From contig JBBPFI010000012.1 in the NCBI GenBank assembly GCA_037974965.1, positions 248,001 through 312,000 of the forward strand: a DNA stretch of 64,000 nucleotides, given 5' to 3'. The notes beneath the pieces were generated by a model. It saw nothing but the letters and a program-made list of their open reading frames with translations. It did not search any database and had not been told where the DNA came from. The position numbers were made by a program, and so were the translations under genes. Below are positions 14,173 to 57,313 of the stretch, piece by piece; the first letter of the stretch is position 1; each line of letters begins with the position of its first letter. The stretch comes from Dacryopinax spathularia. Taxonomy: Eukaryota > Basidiomycota > Dacrymycetes > Dacrymycetales > Dacrymycetaceae.

Positions 14173-16037
14173 ATGTCCGCCCCTACGCCGCGTCGTCGCC
14201 TCTTTTCTTTTGGCAGTCGTGCCAAAACGCCTGACCCATCCACTGCCGCCCCGGCTGCAGCTCCACCTCCCCGTTCGAAGACACCGGCGCCGTCTGCCTC
14301 AGGAAGCTCTTCCCACAGAAGAGCTGCGTCTAACGTCGACAGCGGCTATGCAACTGATGCCGGTTCGAGCCGTAGGCGTGCTGCTGAATCCCGACGGGGT
14401 CCCCCAACCATCAACCCTGGAGTTCCCCCTGTGCCTCCACTTCCTCGTGCGCCGACAGGACCTAGACCACCTAATCAACCAGCAATTGCAGGGCGACCTG
14501 CGTACGTGGTCCCAACCCACTCCGTGGATGCTCGGCCGCCTAGTCGAGCAGGCAGTCGAGCAGGCCTTCGAGCTCCACCCACACCAGCACCTGCGCGCTT
14601 CCGCCGACCTCCGCTGCCTAGACCGGCGTTTCTGTCGGATTCCGAAGGGGAAGGTCCATGGCCACAGGACAACGGCTTTCATTACAGAGGACGATCCCGC
14701 CGGACACTGATGAGCCCGGAATATCAGAGTGAGCGAAACGCTCTGCAGAGCGTTATGCTCCCATATCCGCTTGATTTGGGCGATGACGCAAGGAAACTGT
14801 GAGTTTCTCATGACGGAAAGTGTTCCCCCCGCTGACCATCCTTCAGGGAGAAGTATCTCTATGGTCTAGTCTATAATAGGCTGCGGTCCAATGGTCGCGA
14901 ACGCGTATACGTAGGACCGACTTTCAGCAAGAAGTACGCCAAGCTTCCGCCGCAGCGTGTCCTTGATATCGGAGCCGGTTATTGCTATTGGATTCGGGAC
15001 GCTATGTTATGCTGGCCGGTAAGTAGGCTCTTCTCAGCACGTCTTGTGCTTGCTAACATTACCGGTGCCTATCGCAGAGGACAGAGTTCGTCGCATTTGA
15101 CTTCCACGACCTAAGACCGGAGTATCTGAGAAGTATCCCGAGAGTGCGATTCGTAGAAGGCAATCTTCTGTGAGGGCTCTCACTTCTTCCGCAATTCAAT
15201 CCTTGCTCATCGGACTCATACCAGGGGAGACCCGCAGGGCCAGTTGCATTGCCTTCTTGCGCAAGGCAAATTCGACTACATCCGAATGGCTAATATGTCA
15301 TTGGCTATTCCTTGGGATCAGGTAGATCGTGTCCTTTCTTATCAGTTTGGGCTATGTATTGACGACCGCGCAGTGGACCAACGTCTTTCGAATCGTGAGG
15401 GAACTCCTGACTGATCGTGGAGTTCTGGAGGTTCGTGGGTCGACGGCGCAGCCCTCAACTTCTCACTCATCGCTCTTTCCTAGATCGTTGATGACGGCTG
15501 GTTCCCTCCGCCCTTCGAAGCGAACGCTCCTTTCGACGACCAAACCCAAAGGACGTATGACCACATGTTCGTGGACATGCTCGAGATGCGCGGCATTCGG
15601 AGCTCCGAGAAGAGTCAGCAGCAATGGGGAGCGATGCTTATGGGAAGCCTGAAGAATGCCGATTTACATCTGGTTGATATCAATCATAAGAAGATGACGA
15701 CTCTGGAGCCTGTTGAAGACGATCAGATGTCGAAACGATGGTGGCGCACCCTGAAATTGAGTGCGGATGCCATCGAGAGCACTTTCACCAGTTTGTTCTA
15801 CGGGTACAACGAGGAAATCGAGAATAATCGACGTCAAGGCCTGCGCGACGATCGGCATAGGATCAGAATTCCATCGTTCGTTGACCAGCTGCACAATATG
15901 CGAGACCTCCTGTGCATGTACGCCCCAGTCTTCGTAACGTTTGGAAGAGTTGCTGACACCTAGACAGAGGATCCAGCGAGGCATACGTGTACAACGAATC
16001 CACATTCGCCATCATGATCTGCGAGCGGCGCGGTTGA
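14173..16037 (+). CDS. SAM-dependent methyltransferase-like protein, paralogue 2
   Basis: The Ser/Pro-rich N-terminus (MSAPTPRRRLFSFGSRAKTP) aligns with paralogue 1 (SLTGRAKTPDPTPS). After the first intron (donor after GGAAACT) come EKYLYGLVYN, VLDIGAGYCYWIRDA (motif I), TEFVAFDFHDL, VRFVEGNLL, FDYIRMANMSLAIP, WTNVFRIVRELLTDRGVLE and IVDDGWFPPP. A last 50-bp intron (15918-15967) leads to an exon ending in YNESTFAIMICERRG and a TGA at 16035-16037, matching the YDGSTFHVTIARRK end of paralogue 1. All junctions resolve with consensus borders, so this copy looks intact. Class I methyltransferase fold is inferred from motif I and the FDYIRxAN / GVLE order. Substrate and pathway are unknown; the neighbouring drug-type transporters hint at secondary metabolism, but that is only inference. 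Confidence 0.75.
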
Positions 16038-44328: not shown

Positions 44329-45381
44329 TTTTGACCTTTCTTACACGGCTGCTAACGCGCCTACCCTTTCATTCCTATATTTTCTTACATACTTGATAGG
44401 TCGTGATGGTGGATGGTTCCTCGCCTCTTATTTGTATATTCTCAGTGATGATTTTCCGCGATACGACTCCTGTTATGTCTTCGTGCGGATTAATGGGGAT
44501 TTACCGCAACTTCCGTAATTTGTCGAGCTTCGAACGGGACACGCGCATGGTACAAAGTGATCAATCATATACGCTGCTACGCTCTTGCTTGAGGAATACT
44601 GGGATCAGTTACGGTGGACTGCGGTTATCTCGCGACCGGAGGGTACTCCTAAGAGTGATCATCCGCAGCATATCGATATATAGTACATCTCACACGCGAA
44701 GCTGGTACTTCAGTTGCGTTGGTAAGCTTTATGGGAACATCGGGGTTTTCAGTCCTAAAGAGCGGGCATGTCTGTTCTCCTTCGGGCAAGAAGACCAGAA
44801 GGCTAGTGTCTCGGAAGACACGAAAGAGATGATCGTCGGAGATTAGAGGTTGCGATACGATACGCCCTTCCTAGCGCTGCGGAAGGACGAGTGCAGTGAT
44901 ACGATCTGCTTCTCCTCCTCGCAATCACGCTCGTTGCTGGCCGTATGATGCGCGGGAGAAGGTCAGAAGACGCGGATGTCTAGCACTTTAAGTCGCGAGG
45001 AGACATGACGACACGCACGCGCACGACACGCCCTCACACCGAGCACAATCCAAGTCAGTTGGAGACAGGCGGGTTGTTTGAGCAAGACATGTTATCTCTT
45101 GACCAAGTTATGGGACAGTAAGAGATGTTGTTCCTGGACAACGTAGTTGGGAAGGTTCTTTACAGGGGGAAATTCCTGGGCAACGTAGTTGACCAGGTTC
45201 TTTGCAGGAGGAAAGTCCTCGCGCTCAAAATACCCTTTTTTAGCAATGGTCACGCGGGCGCATGCGGATCTTTTTTCATCCGCCATCGTCATCGTTGTCT
45301 GGTTGTGGTCCTTTGGTGCGACACTTCTTTACTTACCACTCTTCTCGTTCTTCTTGCGCCCGCCCTTTACCTGTTCGACTT
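44329..45381. other. Spacer with the presumed 5' edge of the Helitron and a 42-bp direct repeat
   Basis: TTCCTGGACAACGTAGTTG starts at 45131 and is repeated, with small changes, at 45173 (TTCCTGGGCAACGTAGTTG). The match continues through AGGTTCTTT(A/G)CAGG(G/A)GGAAA, giving a period of 42 bp. The iterated palindrome starts at 45382. The Helitron's 5' end should be in the last few hundred bases, but the short TC start of Helitrons cannot be placed by eye. Confidence 0.5.
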
Positions 45382-45577
45382 CTTGCGCAAGCCCTCCCCC
45401 TTCGACAATGCATCTGTGTTCGACTACGTGGACTAATTGTGCTCGGCGCCGAGTCATGTCTCTGAAGGTGGCTGGTCAAGATTGTCCGCTGCGTCAGAAG
45501 ATGGCTTGCGCAAGAGCCGCATCTTCTTTCATTAAAGCTGCGATTTGGTCTTCCTATCCTCCTGCGTCCTGGCTATT

Positions 45578-48500
45578 ATGGAAGCTGTCTTCTTGCAGTC
45601 TGGTGCAATTCGAATCGGGAATGATACACATCCCAGCTCCGTGCTGAATGCGCGCTTTACGTTTGTCGGCATCGAACGACTCGACGATTTCGACGTTTCT
45701 CAACTTGAAGATGGTGCTATCGCTTTGTCCGCTCCTTGGTCGGTCCTTTCTCAGTCATATGGCCACTTTACGTTAGGCGACTTGCGCAAGATGGTCCGGA
45801 GTCTTCGTCTGTCAGGCCACAGCAAATCCACTCGAGAAGAGATCCTACAATTGATGCACAGCACGTCAATCTCCCATGGACAACTTCGCTGGATATTCAA
45901 ACCGAGGGCTCCGAGCTTTCATAACGGGTTCTCTGTTCGCCCATCGTTTGTAGTGGATGCCGCAGCGTCCCACTCGCGTTCCAGTAAACGGCGCAGGGTT
46001 GTGCTTGCGCAAGACGAGGATGAAGAAGAGGAAGTGACCGCGCGGATTAACCTTCCCATGCCGGCGGATGACGATTCATTTCCGCCGCCTATCGATGACG
46101 ATCTTGTATACAAGATTATACTGGAATATCAAGATGCTGTCCGAGAAGAGAATCTGCGGCCCGGAGTATGCGGTTGTTGTGGAGAGAGCGTGCGAGAGGT
46201 TGACTTGCGCAAGACGTCTGTAGAAGACATCAATTTCGACCTGCTACAGAACGACTTCGTTCCTCGACAGTTGTCACCCACCAGTTACGACTTCGAATGC
46301 TACCACCAAGCGTTTTTGCATGCCGACGGTCTCAGCAATCCTTGGGACTTCGCAGGGCATATTGATTTATGCTCTATGTGCTGGAGAAGTCTTGCGCAGG
46401 ACGAGATGCCTCAGTTCGCCATCGCCAATGGTTTTTACTACGCGCATGAATGCTTGCCAGAAGCGGTTGCCTCTGCATTCCGCGATGCGACGTTCATCGA
46501 TCGTCGGTTGGTTGCTCGGTGCACGGCAACGAAGATATGTTTTCGGTATCTTGACAACCCCGAAAGTCGCCTTTATCGAAACGGGTACGATGGAATGCAG
46601 CGATATTCGAAGGGCAATGTTATTATCTTTCCGCAGGACAATGCGGTTTTGAACAATATCTTGCCGCCGCCTCTCAGCGATGTGAAGGACTCGTTTGTGG
46701 CCGTTTTCGCTGGTCATGAAGAGATCACGCCCGACGTACTGCGGCGTATTGGCCCGGTGAAGGCTAATGCACGCATTGTTCGTACTCTGATCGACTTCTT
46801 GCTCAAGAACAATAAGGCGTACACGTGTGCCACAGTGGACTTTCCGACTGGAGCTGTTTTTTCTCCGTCAAATTTCGCCAATCTATTTCATCCGTCTTGC
46901 GCAAGAGAGGCAACCGCAGACCTGTTGTTTCCTTGTATTCAAGTTGGTCAGGCCAATCTTGATGGGGACATAGCTGTCGAGTCCGACGTCTCCGGCCGGA
47001 ATGTCTTCGAAGATTCCGTTATTGGAGAGAACGATTTCTATTTGGAGGCTTCGGGCTTTTCGTCGACGAATCCATTGGCTGCCTCGTACCAGGCTATGAA
47101 GGCTGATGCACTTGCGCATGTCTTGGACCAACGCGGTTCTTTCCTTGTTTCCCGTCCAGGGAATCGTGCAATCCATGACATCAAGAACGAGTTCACGTTG
47201 ACATGGATGTTCCCCCATCTCGATCCCTATGGCCTTGGTGGCTTCGATGACCCACGGCGAGTGCGAAAGGTTTCGATGTCGCAGCAGTTATCTCATATGT
47301 TGCGCTGGCGGATCGGCGATTTCAAGAGGATCCGACTTTTCCTTTCGTCTTTCACAGCATCTTGCAGAAGCGGGAGGCAATCCGGCAAGTTCAGTTTCGA
47401 ATTCCGGAAGGACGCCATCAAGCAATTGTCGAACGCTTGCAAAACCTTGATCCAGAAATTTTCACCCGTCTGGCGAATCGATTACAGAAAGATCAGTGGA
47501 GTCGCCCAAACAATGCCGATGAGGAACTCGCCTTGAGAGTCTTGCGCAAGATCGACATGTTACGTCGAGATGTTCCAGGAAGTGATGCATATAAGCGAGT
47601 AAAGCGGGGTCATATGCGTTCTCTGGTCTATCGCGAAGGTTCTTTCGCCCTTTTTATTACGATTACCCTTTGCGATGTGGATGGCTTTCTATGTCAACTC
47701 GCAATCAATGGGTTCAAAGACGTGGAGAACCTGCGCAAGGGGCAATCAAGGCAGACTCGATTTTCCCGTGCAATGAAGGTTGCACATAGTCCGGCTAAAG
47801 CGGCGGAAGTGTTCCACGAAACGATGCTGCGATTCCGCGATATAATCCTACGTTATGGTCGAGGTCCTGGCCTCTTTGGCACTTGTACGGCATGGTTTGG
47901 GATGGTGGAGGCACAAGGTCGTGGAACGCTCCACTGTCACTTGCTCGTATGGCTCAAGGGCAATCCGTCTCCGGAAGACCTGCGCAAGAAGTTGTCGGAG
48001 TCGGCAGAATTTAAAGCTCGGATGTTCGAGTGGCTGGAGCACATCATCAAGACCGAATTGCCGACAGACCATGAAGTGGTAACAGAACCAAATGGACCCT
48101 TGCCAATGCCACGTCTTGCGAAGGACCAAGTCGATCCTCGTACCAGGCCAGCTCCGGACATTCGATCGTGTGGACCGGAATGGAAGGATGTGTACCTGTC
48201 GCACGTGGAAGAACTCGTAAAGGTCAATAACTGGCACGAACATTGTGCTACATGTTGGATCCACTTGCGCAAGGGAGAAGAGAAGACCGATAGTAACTGC
48301 CGAATGCGTATCGATGGAACTACGCGAGCAAAAACGACTATCGATCCCGAAACTGGTTCGATTCTCTTGCGCAGGTTGCACCCTCGGATTAACGAGTACA
48401 ACGATACGATGATGTTTTTGCTCCAAGGAAACATGGATATCCAATACGTTGGATCCGGCGAGGCTGCTAAAGCGGTGCTGTACTATATCACCGATTATAT

Positions 48501-51369
48501 TACGAAGCCTTCCCTCAAAATGCATGCCGCTCTGAGTGCCCTGATTGGTGCCCTGCAGAAGAATCAGCAGAAGTTTGCAAACGATAACGAAGCATCCGAT
48601 GGGACGAAGGCCAGAAGCTTGTTGATGAAATTGCTCAACAGCGTCTCCGCAAGGCAAGAACAGTCGCATCAACAGATCTTGAGCCATTACGTGGGCGGGG
48701 GAGATTGTTATACTTCTCACCTGTTTGCTCCTCTTTATTGGAGGGGTGGGCTTTTCCTTCCTACGCAAGAACCTTCGCCTGATGAAGATGTCGATATGGA
48801 ACTTGAAGCTAACCTGTCTGGCAATACCTATCGAGGGCAGCCATTTTCTCTACAAGGCACCAGCGGTCAAATATCCGCTGGTAATCAACAGCTCGACTAC
48901 ATTTATCGACCTGCGCAAGAACCCTTTGAGTCGCTGTGCCTGTACGATTTTGTCGCCTATACCGAGAAGGAATCTCTCTCAAAACAACCTGCAACTCCTC
49001 GAGCAGGAAAAGGTCGGCCACGCTTGTCCCGAGGTGCCTTTTTGTCATTACATCCTCAGCACGACAAATACCAGTTAAAGCTGCGATCTGTTCCTGTAGT
49101 TCCGAACTTTGTCGGGAGTCCTCTCCCTCGCCGCCCTGCGCATGACATTGATGGCGATTCTCATGAATGGTACCAAGCAATGCTGTGCCTCTTTATTCCT
49201 TGGCGCGGTGAAAGTGACTTACGCAAGGAGGGTCAAACGTGGAGGTCGGCATATGAGTCATCAAATTTTCATCCTCTGCATCGCTCCATCATTCGGAACA
49301 TGGGTGTATTCGAAGAAGCAAAGGAAGCAAGAGATGCAGACCTTCGAAATAAGCGACGCCGGAAACGCTTGGCAACATTATTACCTAACCTCTCTGTTGC
49401 GGAGGAAATCCAGGCCATCGAGGATAGCCTTGCGCAAGATAATGATCTTTACGTCCCTCCCGCTGCGATTCAACCCGAGCCTGACTCTACGGAATTCAGT
49501 TCGGCAAGCAAGGTTTTGAATACACCCAATGTTCAAACGGCCCTGATGGATCTGCTCCAAATTTTACCACCCGTACAGGAAGACGATGGTCGTCGTTCGA
49601 ATAATGATCCTGACGAAGTTCGTCGTCTCCGGCCAGAAGATAGTGCTCAGCTAGCAAGTCTTGCGCAAGAACTGCTTGAATGGCGTAGAGAGACTCGCCT
49701 TACTCATGCATCATACGCTTCCACTGCCCTGCCACCCTCCAGCGTAGTAACGAATCTGCATCATGTGGACGCACCTTCCTCTTCCGGGACTTCCGTTTCA
49801 AACCCACCCGTTCTCAGTCATGCTCGGATTCGAACCTGTCTTGCGCAAGTCCTTCGAGTTCAAAACCTGTTGCAAAATGAAGAACAGAGTCGAGTATTAC
49901 GCATTGTCGCAGAACATCTACATCCAGACAACACCCGACAGCTGTTTTTATATGTCGGTGGGGGAGCAGGCACCGGTAAAAGCCATGTCATTCGATCCAT
50001 CGAATTGCTCTTTATCAATTTGGGTATTCGAGACTCGCTACATCTGAGTGCACCCACAGGCGCTGCAGCAGTCATCATTGGAGGTTACACGATCCACTCG
50101 TTGACAATGTTACCTACGCAGAGGGGCCGAAGAATAAACCTTTCTCAACTGGATACCAACTGGCGCGGCATTCGTTGGCTCGTCATTGACGAGATCTCCA
50201 TGGTATCCGCTCAATTCCTACATGACATTGCCTTGCGCATGTCACTCGGCAAGGGTGGGGAAAGTGACGCTCCCTTTGGCGGGGTTCACATTATATATAC
50301 GGGCGATTTCAGCCAGTTAAAACCCATGGCCGCGTCTCCGCTGTACAGCTATAAGCTGGTAAACGGAGTTTCGCATGCAACAGCGAGTCATGCGCAAGGC
50401 CAGGAAGCCCTACATGGTGCTCTGTACTGGAGGCAGCTAAACGAAGTCGTACTTCTCACTCAGAATGTACGACAAGCGCAAGACCCTCGCTGGTCAAATT
50501 TACTTCGAAGGATTCGGGAAGGACACGCTTGGATGGGTCATCGGCCCCATAGTCCTGCGCAAGTCGGCGACGGAGAAAACTATTCCATCTCAGATTCCGC
50601 CGTCTTACACAGTCGGTTACTCTCGAACCTTCACCGCGCGTCCCCAGAAATAGCAGCTTCCTTTTTGGATGCGCCAGTCATAGTTTGCACAAAGGATATA
50701 CGAGACGCAGTAAATCTCAACTTGGCCCGAAGACATGCTCATTGCTTGCGCAAGGACTGCGTTATCTACTACGCTCATGACTGGATCGGCAATACGTGCT
50801 TGTATGGAGAAGCACAAAAGTCGCTATGGACATTGCCCATCAATCAAACCGACGATGCACCTCCCTTTATGCCAATATTTCCTGGCATGAGGATTATGTT
50901 GACTGAAAACATTGCACTGTCCCGGTGCCTAGTCAATGGTGCAACAGGATCGGTGGTTTCCATTCGCTACGAGCAGGACCGGGATGGACGACGCTATGCA
51001 AAAGCCGTTATGGCCAACATAGAGGGCTGCAATCATGCGCAAGAAGGACTTCCCCAAAACACGATCTGCATACAAGTTCAACGGAAATCGTTCAAGTATA
51101 CAACAACAGAAAATGGTGTCGACTTTATCCACAGTATTTCCAGGGAGTATTTGCCCTTCTTGCCGGCATACTCCTACACCGATTACAAATCCCAGGGAAG
51201 GTCTTTGGAGAAGGCAATAGTCGACCTCGCTGGATGCAGAACTCAGCAGAGCGCATACGTCATGCTATCTCGGGTCAAAACGTTAGATGGCTTGGCTGTC
51301 TTGCGGGACTTTGAAACAACCCATATTTTCAGTCAGCCGCCTTCAGAACTACGACACGAAAATGGATAG
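45578..51369 (+). CDS. Helitron Rep-helicase with SAP and DUF6570-like N-terminus (one apparent frameshift)
   Basis: The N-terminal part (45578 to about 47325) has a SAP-like motif LGDLRKMVRSLRLSGHSKS (DNA binding), then a Cys-rich CGCCGES region and a DUF6570-like segment ending in FPHLDPYGLGGFDDPRR. The Rep part follows in the next frame: FPFVFHSILQKREAIR, FITITLCDVDGF, the HUH motif in GRGTLHCHLLVWLKG, and the double tyrosine in YYITDYITKPSLKM. The helicase has Walker A GGGAGTGKSH, Walker B IDEISMVS, GDFSQLKP, YTDYKSQGRS and the closing YVMLSRVKTLDGLAVL. It should nick, unwind and transfer one strand of the element. Near 47325-47335 the frame changes: one G seems lost from what would read FKRDPTFPF. 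Either a sequence error or a recent mutation explains this. The rest is open for about 1335 codons, so decay is slight. Confidence 0.9.
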
Positions 51370-51539
51370 GCTGGCGTGCCTTGCGCAAGACACAGCAGCA
51401 CGGTACCCTTCTAGTGAGACATTCTCTTAAACCTCTTCATCTTGTCCTGCAAGCCTCCGGTCAGCCGCTCTTGCACCTTGCGCAAGATAAGCACGCGGTT
51501 ATAAATGCTGGTTTCCTACAGCACGTTCGCCCATGCATC

Positions 51540-52560
51540 ATGCCTTCCAAACGCCATGTCCCACTTGTTGAACAAGATGACGAAGTTGTCCTGCGCAGGA
51601 AACGGTTCGTCTGGTGATCTCATTATCTTCTCCGCTAACATTGTGCAGTAACAAGGTGGATGTAGGAGATAATGTCATTCCAGATATCAACGACCGCCCT
51701 GTCGACTCCCAACCTCCTCCTCAGCAACCCGGACATCCGGACGTCGACTCCGCAACCATTGCCTCCAGCTCGGATGACGATGATCTTGCTGCCCTGGCAC
51801 CAATTGAAGGTTTTGATTCTGTTACGGAGCAACGGATACACGCCATGCGCAAGTATATCGACAGCGCCCGCGGAGTCTACTATGTGTGTACTTTCCCAGA
51901 CAACCTACAGTTTGGACACGACCAAGCCTTGGACTTCAGCAATTTTGTTGTGCGCGCTGACAACACACCTGCGCATGCGTGGCTTGTTGGCCGTGTAATG
52001 GCGCTTAAGTTGCGGAACGACGATGGATCTTGGCCGGACCAAGTTTACCTCAGCGTCAAGCCACTCGTCAAGTCCGACCTCAAAGCGGCCACTCGCATCA
52101 CTAACTTATACTCAAGACCCCGCCAATGTAAGTCTGATCTCGCTCAAACGTCTTGCGCAGGCTCACAAGTGCACAGGGGCAGAACTCAATCCCTTTGGAA
52201 CTGTAATCGCGAGCAGATTCCAACGGAAGTATCAGTCCGATGCACCTGTACGTTACCTCTGCACATGTCCACCTTCTGTTCTCACTCGCGCGCAAGGCCA
52301 GAGAGTTCACGAACATTTACGATGCCTCTAACGGAATGAAGCCAAAGAAAGACCTACCCAAGCGCGCAAAGGAGGACTTGCGCAGGGGAGACCTGGTGCT
52401 CATGGACATGCAAGTGAAGAAGCGGTTTGATCCTAAAGATGCCGAGATCCCCAAACCCAAGCGACCGCACTCTATCAGTTTTCACCTGCATGCCATTTTT
52501 TTCCTACAGGAAGGCTCGGGTCTTAAAGATGATGATGATGATGTCACGTATACTTTCTAA
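51540..52560 (+). CDS. Helitron accessory protein 1, unknown
   Basis: I do not recognise a family. From an ATG at 51540 an exon to 51613, then 51649-52137, and two later exons join to about 300 residues ending in DDDDDVTYTF. The central part is the most ordered: IHAMRKYIDSARGVYYVCTF, GHDQALDFSNFVVRADN, AWLVGRVMALKLRNDDGSWP. The last exon has GDLVLMDMQVKKRFDPKD followed by SFHLHAIFFL. An acidic, Asp-rich end precedes the stop. One intron (52138-52186) contains a palindrome copy. Junctions after 52137 are inferred from frame continuity and are less sure. It is transcribed in the same direction as Rep-helicase, 170 bp downstream. Confidence 0.6.
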
Positions 52561-52571
52561 TGTGAAACTCC

Positions 52572-52988
52572 ATGAGTCAGTCAGCTGCACTCCAGTCTTG
52601 CGCAAGCCATCTACAAGCCATTTCCTTGTTTCGGCCTGAATTGCTTTATAAATCTCGTTCTCGCTCTGAACCATACCTCCTCTCCACCCTTACCCTCAGA
52701 GATGTAAGCGACCTATCAACAATTGCTCTCATTGTGCTGACATAGCACAGGGTCCGGTTCGAGACAAGCTCAAATAGCCACGGTACTTCGACCAATTACA
52801 TTCATGCGCAAGACGAAAACGAACCAATTGAACTGTTCACAACTATCTTGGCTCTACGTCTACTAAATGACGACCTTTATGAGGACTTGTGCGATATCGG
52901 AGACAAGCTTTTAACCGCTGAAGAAACGATACGCCGACAAAGCTTACTAATTCATCATCTCCGGCTTCAACTGCGACAACTATTGTAA
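52572..52988 (+). CDS. Helitron accessory protein 2, small helical
   Basis: Two exons (52572-52703 and 52746-52988) join in phase 0 to 124 residues. It opens with MSQSAALQSCASHLQAISLF and ends in a predicted amphipathic helix (ALRLLNDDLYEDLCDIGDKL, then EETIRRQSLLIHHLRLQLRQLL). The start is only 11 bp after the stop of accessory protein 1. The function is unknown; a helical partner for the coiled-coil product next to it is possible. Confidence 0.55.
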
Positions 52989-53154
52989 TCTCCGCTCTTT
53001 TTGGCCTGCGCAAGAATCTCTCTTCTCCCGATCTGAAACCGGACTACGCATTCACTCTTCTTCACGAGGCCATCCACCTTTTGCCTCCGCTTCATTACTT
53101 GCGCAAGCTTCTCACATCCTTTCCTTATCGCGCTCCTCTCTGCCCTGTTCCGCC

Positions 53155-53865
53155 ATGTAAGTTCTCACAGACCACAAATGTCTCTGGCTAATCGCTTTAA
53201 GGCCCGCCCCATCCAGCCCTCAATCCGGCCGTTCTGCTTCCAATGAACCATCGGCATTTCCGTCTACGCATTTGCCTTCGCAACAAGTTCCTGCGCAAGC
53301 CATTTCAGCACATGCGATCCACGCGCAAGCCATTCCTGCGCAAGCCACTCCTGACGATACTGGCTCCCCTGTATCCACAACGCCGGTTGACACAGATGAC
53401 GGCAGAGCCTCGCCTTCCGCCCTTCAAATGCTCGCCCTCCGCACGATCCAGGTAGATGACTTACAAGCCTCTTTGGCTGTACGTCAGAATGACTTTAACG
53501 ACCTTCTCTGGGAAGCGCACGATGTCGCCCGAGAACGCGACGAAGCCAAAGCGCAAGCCGAACTACTTGCGCAAGAATTAGCTCGAGCTCGACGCGATAA
53601 TCCAGAGCAGGAACCGGTCGACTATCTTGCGCAAGAACTGCACACTGCTCGTAGCCGCATAAGAACATTACAAGCCATGGTGGAGGATCGCAATCGAACT
53701 ATACTCCAACTCGAACCACCTGAACGGCTTGCGCAAGAGCTGCAGTTTGCTCGCCGTCGCATTTCCGAGCTTGAAGCAGTTGTCGCGCAACATAATAGTA
53801 CGATCCAAGACTGGGAGAGCAGATACGCAAAACTGCTTGAAGGCAAAGTGCGAAAGCGAGAGTAG
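53155..53865 (+). CDS. Helitron accessory protein 3, coiled coil with palindrome-derived repeats
   Basis: The clear part is one exon (53202-53865) with a Pro/Ala-rich start and about 130 residues of coiled coil (LLAQELARARRD, YLAQELHTARSRI, RLAQELQFARRRI, then QHNSTIQDWESRYAKLLEGK). The four AQ-type motifs in the first region (VPAQAI, HAQAI, IPAQAT) and the three LAQEL motifs are encoded by palindrome copies or close variants. In-frame continuation across an intron (53157-53201) reaches an AT|G split start in CCGCCATG, which gives 221 residues; the frame is open further upstream, so the N-terminus is uncertain. Likely an oligomerising partner in the transposition complex, by inference only. 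Confidence 0.6.
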
Positions 53866-54184
53866 TATAACACGTCGTACGGAATATGATTAATGGTACA
53901 AATCGTTCTCTTCCTGCGCAAGTTGCCTTATCCCGTACCGTACAGTCATCATTACGCCCACAAACTAAGTACGCTCATAGTAGGTCACGACCCAATTGGA
54001 CCGCCCCAATCCCTGCGCAAGCTTCAGCTATACACTCGAGATCCTGCGCAAGACTTACTTACCCTATCCACATAGTCCGCCGTCGCTTTAATATACATAC
54101 GATAATCACGATCGACCACTTTATCGAGGGTCTGCATGTATTGATTATGAGGCTCGAACTGTAATCCAATCAGTTACGGAGTAA

Positions 54185-56434
54185 TTACGTCTTGCGCAGG
54201 GGATAACAGACCTCCTCAATACCAGCCCAAGTCGCCATCTGAGCCGCGCTCTGTTGCAACAGGTTCGAAGTTGCAGTGTTAAAAGAGAAGATCGGGTGTC
54301 TACCGGTACCATCCTGGATGTCTGCGATAAATCGATATCTAGCACGAGATCAGTTCCTGCGCAGGTAACTTGCGCAAGACTTACTTATGCCCCGGAGCAA
54401 TATACGTGCGCTTGCACGAATCGCAAACATAGTCGCCGTTTGCCGTTACCGAGAGCTCGTTCCACTTTTTGTTGCACTCCTCGAACGGACACCCCAAATA
54501 CGTTATGTTCTTCGTCCTACTGGGCAAGATCTTCGCAACCACAATAAATGTCTTCGGCCCGTCCATACCCAAACGACGTTGGATTGCTGCGCTAATCGTG
54601 TAGGTCTCGTTCGGCATGGCTTGCGCAGGAATTGGGAAACCTTCAGCGCTGAAACTGCCCGTGAGTGTACGCCACATGTTCTGATCATGAGTGTGTGCGT
54701 TCCACCTGCGCAAGTTTCAGTCATATTAGCACATCACACGAATGGACATACCAATCCATCACTCTCTTGTGCGCCGCATTGTTGTCGTCGAAGAAGACCT
54801 TCGTCCGCTTCGCGGACGTCTTCAAGCATGGCCCATCGCGAAAGTCCACCAGCGCACTCTTGATAGTGACGCAACGTCCTACGTTGTTGATGAAAGCGTT
54901 CTGCCAACCATCGAAACAGCACAGCCGAATGACCACATGCGAATCGTCGACCAACCAAACATCAAGACGATCAGTCGACGGAGCACGCTTATGGCCCTGC
55001 GCAAGAATGAGAACATGCGCAAGTCAACAAGCAAACTACATACAAGTGTCGCCTGCGCCCCTTCCATCACCCCACTTCTGATTCCTTTGCCGCCAATTCT
55101 AGCGACGACCGCAACGAGATCTAGGAATAATCAACGACATACAAAGTCTTGCGCAAGACTTACATACCTACTGGTTCATTAAGGCGAAAAAACTGGATGG
55201 CGTTCAACGTTGTCCAGTGGAAGAAAATCGGAGGAAAACGGCCATCATCATCCACCTCATTCCACCCGGTTGCCGCTCGTACCACGACGCGGTACTTGTG
55301 CGGGACACGCGAATACTGCTCCGGCGAATCTTCCAACCCTAGGCCTGTAAAACGATAGACCTATACACTGTTAGCAGAATGAAAGAGTTCCTGCGCAAGA
55401 CGTACAGATCCAGCCGTGAGCTTTTTAACGTCCCCAACAAACTGATCATAGCCGATCAGTTCGATCTCACCCTAAAGAACGGTAAGTTCTCTGCGCAAGA
55501 CAGTTAACTATTGACTGACCGTGGTGTCTATCAAAATCGCAGTCTGGAAATATGTCCACCGCCTCGACGCATTATCCCACATCTTCGTGACTTCGGACAC
55601 TTCGTACACACGAGCGAACAATATATATCTATCACAACGTCAATATATGCGTCTTCTTACGCAAGAAACACTTACGGCTCCAGTCCTGGACGAATCTGCG
55701 CTATGTCCGGCTTGCGCACGCCGTTAGCGTAAGTTATTATAACGGACCGAGGAGGAACAACACGACGGTCGTAGTCGGGCGGAGCGTCCTCACAATCCTT
55801 CCAATTGCAGACCTTTCTCCAACGCACAGGAGCGTTTGCCGGTCGATTCGGTAAAGGCGCATGTTCTTGCGCAGGATACCCGGCTTGCAAGTGCGCCGTT
55901 GAACCGATCTCGCCATGTCCTGGCGCAGGCTCCAGTGACATCAGCAATCGCATTGGCTGTTCCTGCATGGGCCAGTTGCCCAGTTTCTTCCACTTCACCA
56001 GCATGATTGAACTGCAATGATCGTCAGTACATACTCCTTGCGCAAGACAAAACCACTCACTAGTTTTGCCCTCCCAAAGCCTGCCAGAACTCGTTCACCT
56101 CCAACACGTCCAACCTCTGCACTTGGCCAGCCTCGATTGCAGCGACAAGTCTAGGGTGCGCCAGCGCCATAATTTGGTATGTTCCATCTTGCACCTTAAT
56201 CCTACGTCGTCTTCAGCAACTACTCAAAACTTGCGCAAGAAATCGTACTCACAGATAAAGACGTGGTGTATGCGGCGTACCGTTGTCCTTGCGCAAGGGG
56301 CCCACGAAGCCCAAGACTTGCAAGATCGCAGTATACTGAATTGGCGAACCGAAGACCATCGTGGGCAACGCGCCCTTCGTCAATATCGGGCGAGGTCGCT
56401 GATTGGCAGATTGATTGTTAGATGGCTGGGCCAT
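54185..56434 (-). CDS. RPA70-like single-strand DNA-binding protein encoded in the Helitron
   Basis: The first exon (from ATG 56434) reads as an RPA70 N-domain: ILTKGALPTMVFGSP, then AILQVLGFVGPL. OB-fold segments follow: SVIITYANG; VYRFTGLGLEDSPEQYSRV with FFHWTTLNAIQFF (like DBD-A); DVWLVDDSHVVIRLCCFDGW with VTIKSALVDFRDG (DBD-B). The final exons carry the DBD-C zinc ribbon C-X4-C...C-X2-C (YLGCPFEECNKKWNEL, YVCDSCKRTY) and APGHKYRFIADIQDGTG. The stop follows YPLRKT. I count about eight short introns. It should coat the displaced single strand during rolling-circle transposition. Its opposite orientation makes it convergent with the coiled-coil gene. Several introns contain the iterated palindrome, and one 3' splice site is a palindrome copy. 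Length and end are slightly shorter than in host RPA70. Confidence 0.82.
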
Positions 56435-57313
56435 AATTGGAGTTAAGCTTGCCGGTTACGAGACAGTGGGGAACGGAGGAATCGGTGACGAGAACGAAGT
56501 GATCGACGACGGCAAGGGGCTTGCGCAAGACCACACATTTGCTCCCGAATTCTGACTCCGCCCTCCACCACGCACGTTGCCCAGGCGTGCGCGGAGCGGT
56601 TTGACTATCGTTTGATCCCGAACTGCAACCTTCCTAATGGGGAACTACTTCCGTGGGCATTTATGATTTCCAGAATCACGCGGTCGGATCAGTGCTTAAG
56701 TTCCTACCCTCATGCAGATAAGTTGCGGGCCACCTAATTTTCTATAATGAACCGCTTTAAATCAGCCTGTTATCCATTCAGCCCAACCTTAGAAGCAACA
56801 AGCTACATGTTCGCCTAGTAACTGCTTGTTGTCCAGGCGAGGGGAACTCCCAGCTGGGCGGGCGGGGGGTGCTGGGGGTTCCTCGAGCCTGGCAACATCG
56901 ATGGAAGATGCATCGACAGAAGTACTTAATTCTTAGCTTATTGTCCAGGTTCGCGCGGAGCGGATGACTATTTTTGTGTTGATCACTGAAAGTAGACCTT
57001 TTGTCCGGACACAAACCCCGCATCGCGACCAGGGTGCAAGAAACATTCCGCCCCACACATACATTCCCCAGCCCAATTTGCTCCCTGACGACAGGACACC
57101 ACCGCGCGGGGCCGGGCCATACCAACCTAACAGTCGCCGCCGTCGTCGCCTCTTCTTCTCAACCCCTGTCGCTATTCTCTTCTGCCATTGGCCAACCCAT
57201 CAGCTCGCAGTCTCAGTCCCCTATATCCGTACTTGGCTGGCTAGGCGGACCGGTTCCCCCGAGATAGGAGAATCCCGCGACGAGATATAGCTGATCGGCA
57301 GCAACTCATCACG
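56435..57313. other. Spacer with the Helitron 3' edge and promoter of the next gene; 40-bp imperfect direct repeat
   Basis: GCCCAGGCGTGCGCGGAGCGG..TGACTAT..TTGATC at 56577-56618 recurs as GTCCAGGTTCGCGCGGAGCGGATGACTAT..TTGATC at about 56944-56984. TTGTCCAGGCGAGG at about 56828 is a shorter relative. A palindrome CCCAGCTGGG lies at 56848-56857. No gene is seen. Confidence 0.5.

Follow-up and report, generated by a model that had tools for sequence, protein, structure and literature searches.

The window analyzed here, a stretch of 64,000 nucleotides from a contig of Dacryopinax spathularia, contains a whole Helitron2-like Helitron, and its features are collected in Table 1. The assignment to this type follows from the Pfam matches to PF14214 and PF05970, both over the cut-off in the element, as in a Helitron2-type Rep/helicase, and from the element ends, which have asymmetric terminal inverted repeats as well as a 5′ terminal hairpin. 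The DNA fold around this hairpin (45165–45225) gave a z-score of −3.17, while the 3′ terminal stretch folded no better than its own shuffles. Helitron loci are numbered throughout: the window element is L005 (also W), and its relatives L006, L007, and L015 are also named E6, E7, and E15.

Table 1 Features of the window element; positions are those of the window
Feature	Position	Strand	Remarks
Whole Helitron2-like Helitron	about 45172–56608	+	Ends set by homology to two relatives and terminal repeats, to within a few bases
5′ terminal hairpin with inverted-repeat arm CCTGGGCAAC (45175–45184)	45175–45197	+	DNA fold
Palindrome array, 58 TGCGCA/47 CYTGCGCARG	45382–56529	.	Mean spacing 195 bp
Rep protein, N-terminal half with DUF6570 (PF20209)	45578–47536	+	Frame differs from that of the Rep/Hel half
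Rep (Helitron_like_N) and PIF1 helicase half (Rep/Hel)	47362–51369	+	
ORF2, spliced gene	51614–52557	+	Similar in motif-bearing and motif-free relatives
ORF2c, small coiled-coil-like frame	52749–52985	+	Matches in L006 and L007 only (eight elements compared)
ORF3, coiled-coil-like, short basic C-terminal tail	53188–53862	+	Full-length matches in L006 and L007 only (eight elements compared)
RPA-like gene (replication protein A large subunit)	53968–56452	−	About 11 exons, predicted from conservation
3′ inverted-repeat arm GTTGCCCAGG	56576–56585	+	Asymmetric terminal inverted repeat; 23 bases from the 3′ end

In the window copy, the DUF6570 and Rep/Hel halves are split between frames at 47251–47536; they form a single long frame in L006 and L007. 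Among the best 120 of 194 matches to the Rep/Hel protein, the named relatives in Calocera are 44–67% identical over 34–49% of the length, and those in other named fungi (Trametes, Favolaschia, Gymnopilus, and Peniophora) are 34–37% identical. The RPA-like gene matched Rep_fac-A_C with an E-value of 3.5e-6, scoring 27.3 bits (below the cut-off of 28.5), and gave weaker domain matches to Rep-A_N (E 0.046) and REPA_OB_2 (E 0.14); a comparison of one of its exons with solved structures returned nothing useful. No homolog of ORF3 was found in the protein collection searched (E ≤ 0.001), and no recognizable sequence-specific double-stranded DNA domain was found in any of the element proteins.

The 5′ terminal sequence is present in two tandem copies, 44 bp apart (45129–45214), as if the 5′ end of another Helitron lay just beyond the window element. 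On the other side, a second Helitron 3′ terminus is found at 56941–56971, where 32 bp match the end of L015 with 91% identity, and the stretch 56609–56971 does not contain TGCGCA.

An iterated palindrome along the element

A recount bore out the figures of an earlier note on this DNA, with 58 copies of the palindrome TGCGCA in the array, 47 of them within CYTGCGCARG. As that note had also stated, the array nearly ends at the element edges, since the rest of the window (52.9 kb) contains just 14 TGCGCA and 1 CYTGCGCARG, the latter at 15256. In 300 dinucleotide shuffles of the element, TGCGCA occurred 5.2 times on average (maximum of 12) and CYTGCGCARG 0.10 times (maximum of 2). The Rep/Hel ORF was also compared with 2000 synonymous-codon shuffles, in which codons were swapped between synonymous positions only; it contains 15 TGCGCA vs 2.9 expected (maximum of 9) and 11 CYTGCGCARG vs 0.44 expected (maximum of 4). 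These tests rule out codon bias and base composition as the source of the array.

The whole genome (29.2 Mb) contains 519 CYTGCGCARG, compared to 299 copies of a control consisting of the same pattern read backwards. A total of 178 of these 519 fall in the available sequence of eight elements of the window-element clade, and the remaining 341 correspond to about 11.7/Mb, vs 10.2/Mb for the control. The genome-wide and shuffle counts thus yielded neither of the two outcomes that the earlier note had named as speaking against its claim, namely a similar density across the host genome or a count no higher than in shuffled sequence.

The sites are located in coding, intron, and spacer DNA. With the exon map drawn by homology, 39 of the 58 TGCGCA sites lie wholly within coding DNA, and sites are denser outside coding DNA (9.9/kb) than inside it (4.1/kb); within the RPA-like gene, 8 of 17 sites are outside the exons. 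The word was said to occupy all three reading frames, which is correct for the element as a whole (LRK, LAQ, and, at 46898, CAR), but not for the Rep/Hel ORF, where it is found in two frames only (7 and 8 of the 15 sites, and 0 in the third).

Family-specific words and conservation of the sites

A Rep/Hel search of the same genome gave 56 matches, 30 of which were taken as loci; of the remaining 26, some are second halves of these elements and some are further Helitrons (e.g., on C14, C6, C5, C2, C3, and C11). A tree built from 18 sequences led to a classification of the array-bearing elements into four types. Type I contains L005, L006, and L007, with the word CYTGCGCARG; type II contains L008 and L010, with GACTnTGCGCAnAGTC; type III is represented by L009, with GAAnnnGCGCnnnTTC; and type IV contains L015 and L022, with AGCCTGCGCAGGCT. 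The words of types II–IV are likewise GCGC-centered palindromes. The two type I relatives, whose Rep/Hel proteins are 78% and 60% identical to that of the window element, carry 48 and 55 copies of the word. Hence, the array is not confined to one Helitron, as had been supposed: two further elements share its word and three other lineages carry variants. No such word was seen in the sister clade (L011–L014, L016, and L017). The Rep/Hel proteins of the two type II elements are 57% identical. One of these elements, L010, is split (in L039) by a long minus-strand frame that, by eye, resembles the polyprotein of a Ty3/gypsy LTR retrotransposon.

A blind scan for gapped palindromes, in which three positions had to pair no more than eight bases from the center, was applied to 15 element sequences and 2 host stretches, and then to ten further loci. 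It returned a strong motif in all 6 of the motif-clade sequences given (best log10 p from −38 to −81) and no match in the sister-clade elements L011, L014, L016, and L017, in L020 and L026, or in the two 12-kb host stretches. Nine of the further distant loci were also without a match. Beyond the motif clade, signals were obtained for L021, L024, and L030 (log10 p of −10.9, −27.4, and −7.9), all weaker than those of the motif clade; other Helitron lineages such as these may carry words of their own. In the outgroup Helitron L021, CGTN6ACG is found 15 times vs 4.9 in 200 shuffles (maximum of 12) and CGTN7ACG 17 times vs 4.7 (maximum of 11); L024 contains CGNCGNCG 37 times vs 5 in shuffles (maximum of 12), and L030 gave one weak match.

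The family specificity of the words is strong, not absolute: a type II flank stands on one or both sides of 19 GCGC sites in L009, and 12 sites in L015 are of type I. With frequencies scored as seen from the opposite half-site, the type I half-site has a fixed C at −3 and T at −1 (0.94 each). Types II, III, and IV have in common an A at −5 (0.87, 0.71, and 0.75) and differ at −4, which is C in type II (0.81), A in type III (0.62), and G in type IV (0.78), a code-like switch. GCGC cores are found at equal codon columns in different types where the sister clade has none (e.g., alignment column 3966, types I–IV). Of its 15 cores, L005 shares 3, 2, 4, and 4 with elements of other types vs 1, 1, 1, and 0 with the sister clade; because this excess is small, the idea of old sites whose flanks were retuned across types is only suggestive.

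The sites are evenly spaced. The mean spacing is 186 bp in L006, 172 bp in L007, and 139 bp in L015, with the coefficient of variation (CV) ranging from 0.54 to 0.69 across these elements and L005 (0.54 for L005); random placement gives a CV of about 0.98 (0.975 for L005), and the observed values were never reached in 5000 draws. The largest gap is unusually small in L005, L007, and L015, but not in L006. Similar values were obtained for L008 (189 bp, CV of 0.58) and L009 (175 bp, CV of 0.67). As the spacing is even yet has no one fixed number, we do not claim nucleosome phasing. The element extends beyond the span of the motif: the array begins about 210 bases inside one end and stops about 80 bases short of the other.

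The sites are maintained through selection on DNA, and not through codon usage, as the earlier note had held. In a DNA alignment of L005, L006, and L007, where the two relatives are 69% and 61% identical to the window element, 45 and 41 of the 58 TGCGCA sites are found at the same aligned position, compared to 11.4% and 8.6% of background hexamers and to 21/175 and 9/175 occurrences of the other 63 palindromic hexamers. A codon alignment of L005 with L007 (60% protein identity) gave the same picture: 13 of 15 TGCGCA sites are common to both, while the control words CGCG, GGCC, and CCGG are shared in 1/8, 1/13, and 2/14 cases. At the motif codons of L005 (43–44 codons), protein identity within type I reaches 89% and 86%, vs 78% and 60% at other codons. 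The same codons are 37–45% identical in L008, L014, L011, and L016, under the average of these elements, and 52% and 55% identical in L009 and L015, at or over their average. It is therefore the DNA word that dictates the residues, given that motif codons are conserved within type I and fall to 37–45% in L008, L014, L011, and L016.

Aligning relatives had been put forward as a way to discriminate between insertion and substitution, and it indicated that sites are lost mostly through substitution. Sites absent in L006 and L007 mostly align without a gap (12 of the 13 absent in the closest relative, and 15 of 18 when compared directly); the flanks are unrelated, and the reading frames are kept. 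The high copy number and similar lengths of the sites could evoke the footprint of a tiny inserting sequence, another suggestion of the earlier note, but these alignments rule it out and leave it a probability close to nil.

Another idea of the note was a short hairpin in the single-stranded intermediate. The words are palindromic, and the 14-base word of type IV can form a weak stem of 5 bp (−3.2 kcal/mol). However, the arms vary independently: the type I table (CTT..AAG 72, CTT..AGG 25, CCT..AAG 40, and CCT..AGG 13) gives an odds ratio of 0.94 (p = 1), the arms pair no more than 0.02 above expectation at any flank position (types I, II, and IV), and no compensatory covariation between arms was found in these three types. 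Moreover, CTTGCGCAAG does not fold alone (0 kcal/mol). For these reasons we reject the hairpin, which now appears extremely improbable. Half-sites that are independent on a fixed core fit instead a dimer on double-stranded DNA.

A putative binder and the possible role of the array

Among the genes of the element, those at the 3′ side (RPA-like and the coiled-coil ORF3) appear to follow motif type best. For the RPA-like protein, the exons that align are 80% and 79% identical within type I and at most 44% identical across types. ORF3 is 60% and 69% identical within type I and has elsewhere nothing or short weak matches, such as 62 residues in L009; in the type IV element L015, it was not found except for a weak match of 33 residues. 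The identity of Rep/Hel to that of the window element, on the other hand, falls smoothly (78, 60, 53, 50, 51, 48, and 47–48%). Between L006 and L007, the 3′ module is 73% identical vs 61% for Rep/Hel, and vs 32–43% to other types and the sister clade; for the motif-free pair L011–L014, the corresponding values are 53% for the 3′ module and 61% for Rep/Hel. This within-type contrast is for type I only, the type II partner L010 being interrupted by the LTR element. Such stepping with motif type points to the 3′ module as the possible determinant.

By eye, coiled-coil-like frames that end in a basic tail take the place of ORF3 in L008 and L009, and short frames of a similar look are present in L011 and L014; L015 seems to be without a coiled-coil-like frame there. 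A comparison of the window-element genes with eight elements, made partly by eye, revealed no gene limited to motif-bearing elements. Downstream in L011 and L014 (L041 and L040), several similar-looking extra frames were seen by eye between the ORF2 and RPA-like matches, the latter being in opposite orientation.

Of the possibilities raised in the earlier note, a binding site or self-recognition mark fits these data best. That a protein binds the array is what we infer from the symmetric and independent half-sites, the lineage-specific flanks, the selection on DNA, and the absence of the array from the sister-clade elements examined. The array probably consists of double-stranded sites, evenly spaced along the whole element, for a putative dimeric protein, most likely a product of the element itself, with sites and specificity having co-diverged. 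A two-fold symmetric protein would bind the palindromes as double-stranded sites, and that of each family would read the GCGC core together with its own flanks. If sites and protein changed together, the array would mark the element's own DNA end to end. The best candidates for the element-encoded binder would be two products of the 3′ module, the RPA-like protein or ORF3. Against this reading, RPA is known to bind single strands, and no recognizable domain for sequence-specific double-stranded DNA was found in the element, nor was any of its genes limited to motif-bearing elements in the comparison above.

A similar array and element protein could also serve transposition, by coating or condensing a double-stranded circular intermediate or by loading the RPA-like/helicase machinery, rather than act on chromatin state. 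The even coverage almost to both ends would suit such a role, as would the fact that the element's own RPA-like gene follows motif type. We nevertheless regard it as unlikely, as L011 and L014 of the sister clade have Rep/Hel, ORF2, and RPA-like matches but no comparable array, and L011–L013 are near-identical copies without one. These motif-free relatives, L011–L013 included, seem to have transposed recently, which suggests that not all Helitrons need an array.

Even less probable is a host DNA-binding protein reading the sites, with the families tracking different host paralogs. The word TTGCGCAA seems to resemble the C/EBP-type bZIP site, but four lineage-specific word types are present in one genome, and the residual genomic type I word is near the control frequency (11.7 vs 10.2/Mb).

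Returning to the element-encoded dimer, it is quite conceivable, if somewhat short of probable, that this Helitron clade has a self-identity code, in which a tiled palindrome is kept at the protein's expense and read by that dimer, whose flank recognition would have switched at least three times with dozens of sites following. A eukaryotic transposon would then carry an address tag like those of bacterial genomes; to our knowledge, tags of this kind are otherwise known only from the latter. The arrays would also be a natural record of how the specificity of a DNA binder may evolve jointly with dozens of its sites, and they suggest that rolling-circle transposons might carry a self-recognition or anti-silencing layer that was not described in the literature found. 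The presence of four word types in one genome makes this protein–DNA code directly testable.

Comparison with known systems

FoHeli elements are Helitron2-type fungal Helitrons with asymmetric terminal inverted repeats (PMC5148889), and the window element resembles them in its Rep/Hel protein, its asymmetric terminal inverted repeats, and its 5′ hairpin. It differs from them in that the available parts of that source report no RPA-like gene and describe no iterated internal word. Fungal transposons, including some Helitrons, can carry a TET/JBP dioxygenase, presumed to be an anti-silencing gene (PMC12730594); none was detected in Pfam scans of the window element. A literature search, mostly outside subscription papers, gave no title or abstract opening on an iterated internal word in a Helitron, and the papers that pair Helitron with TGCGCA look unrelated.

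The nearest formal analog is HIP1 (GCGATCGC), a palindrome frequent across whole cyanobacterial genomes and linked to DNA methyltransferases (PMC4390886). The likeness to HIP1 drawn by the earlier note holds insofar as both are highly iterated palindromes. Otherwise it fails: the Helitron word is a different one, varies by family, and stays inside transposons, the 519 copies of the type I word in 29.2 Mb being near the control frequency outside the elements.

The nearest functional analog appears to be the VANDAL/VANC system of Arabidopsis, in which family-specific iterated motifs are associated with anti-silencing proteins (PMC5735166). Both systems have a short family-specific motif that is iterated in the transposon and rare elsewhere in the genome, with relatives that carry different motifs, and motif–protein coevolution has been proposed for VANDAL elements (PMC5735166). 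Their arrangement differs, which is why we do not class the Helitron array as a member: VANDAL motifs, such as the non-palindromic YAGTATTAY of VANC21, are tandem repeats in one orientation that lie mainly in noncoding DNA and reportedly evolve via tandem repeat formation (PMC5735166), whereas the Helitron words are palindromic, evenly dispersed, present in coding DNA as well (39/58 sites), and turned over mostly by substitution. By analogy with what VANC does for VANDAL transposons, the purpose of the array may be self-marking, with anti-silencing as its likeliest form; this last step, by which the chromatin of the element would be kept open, we hold to be possible but less probable than not.
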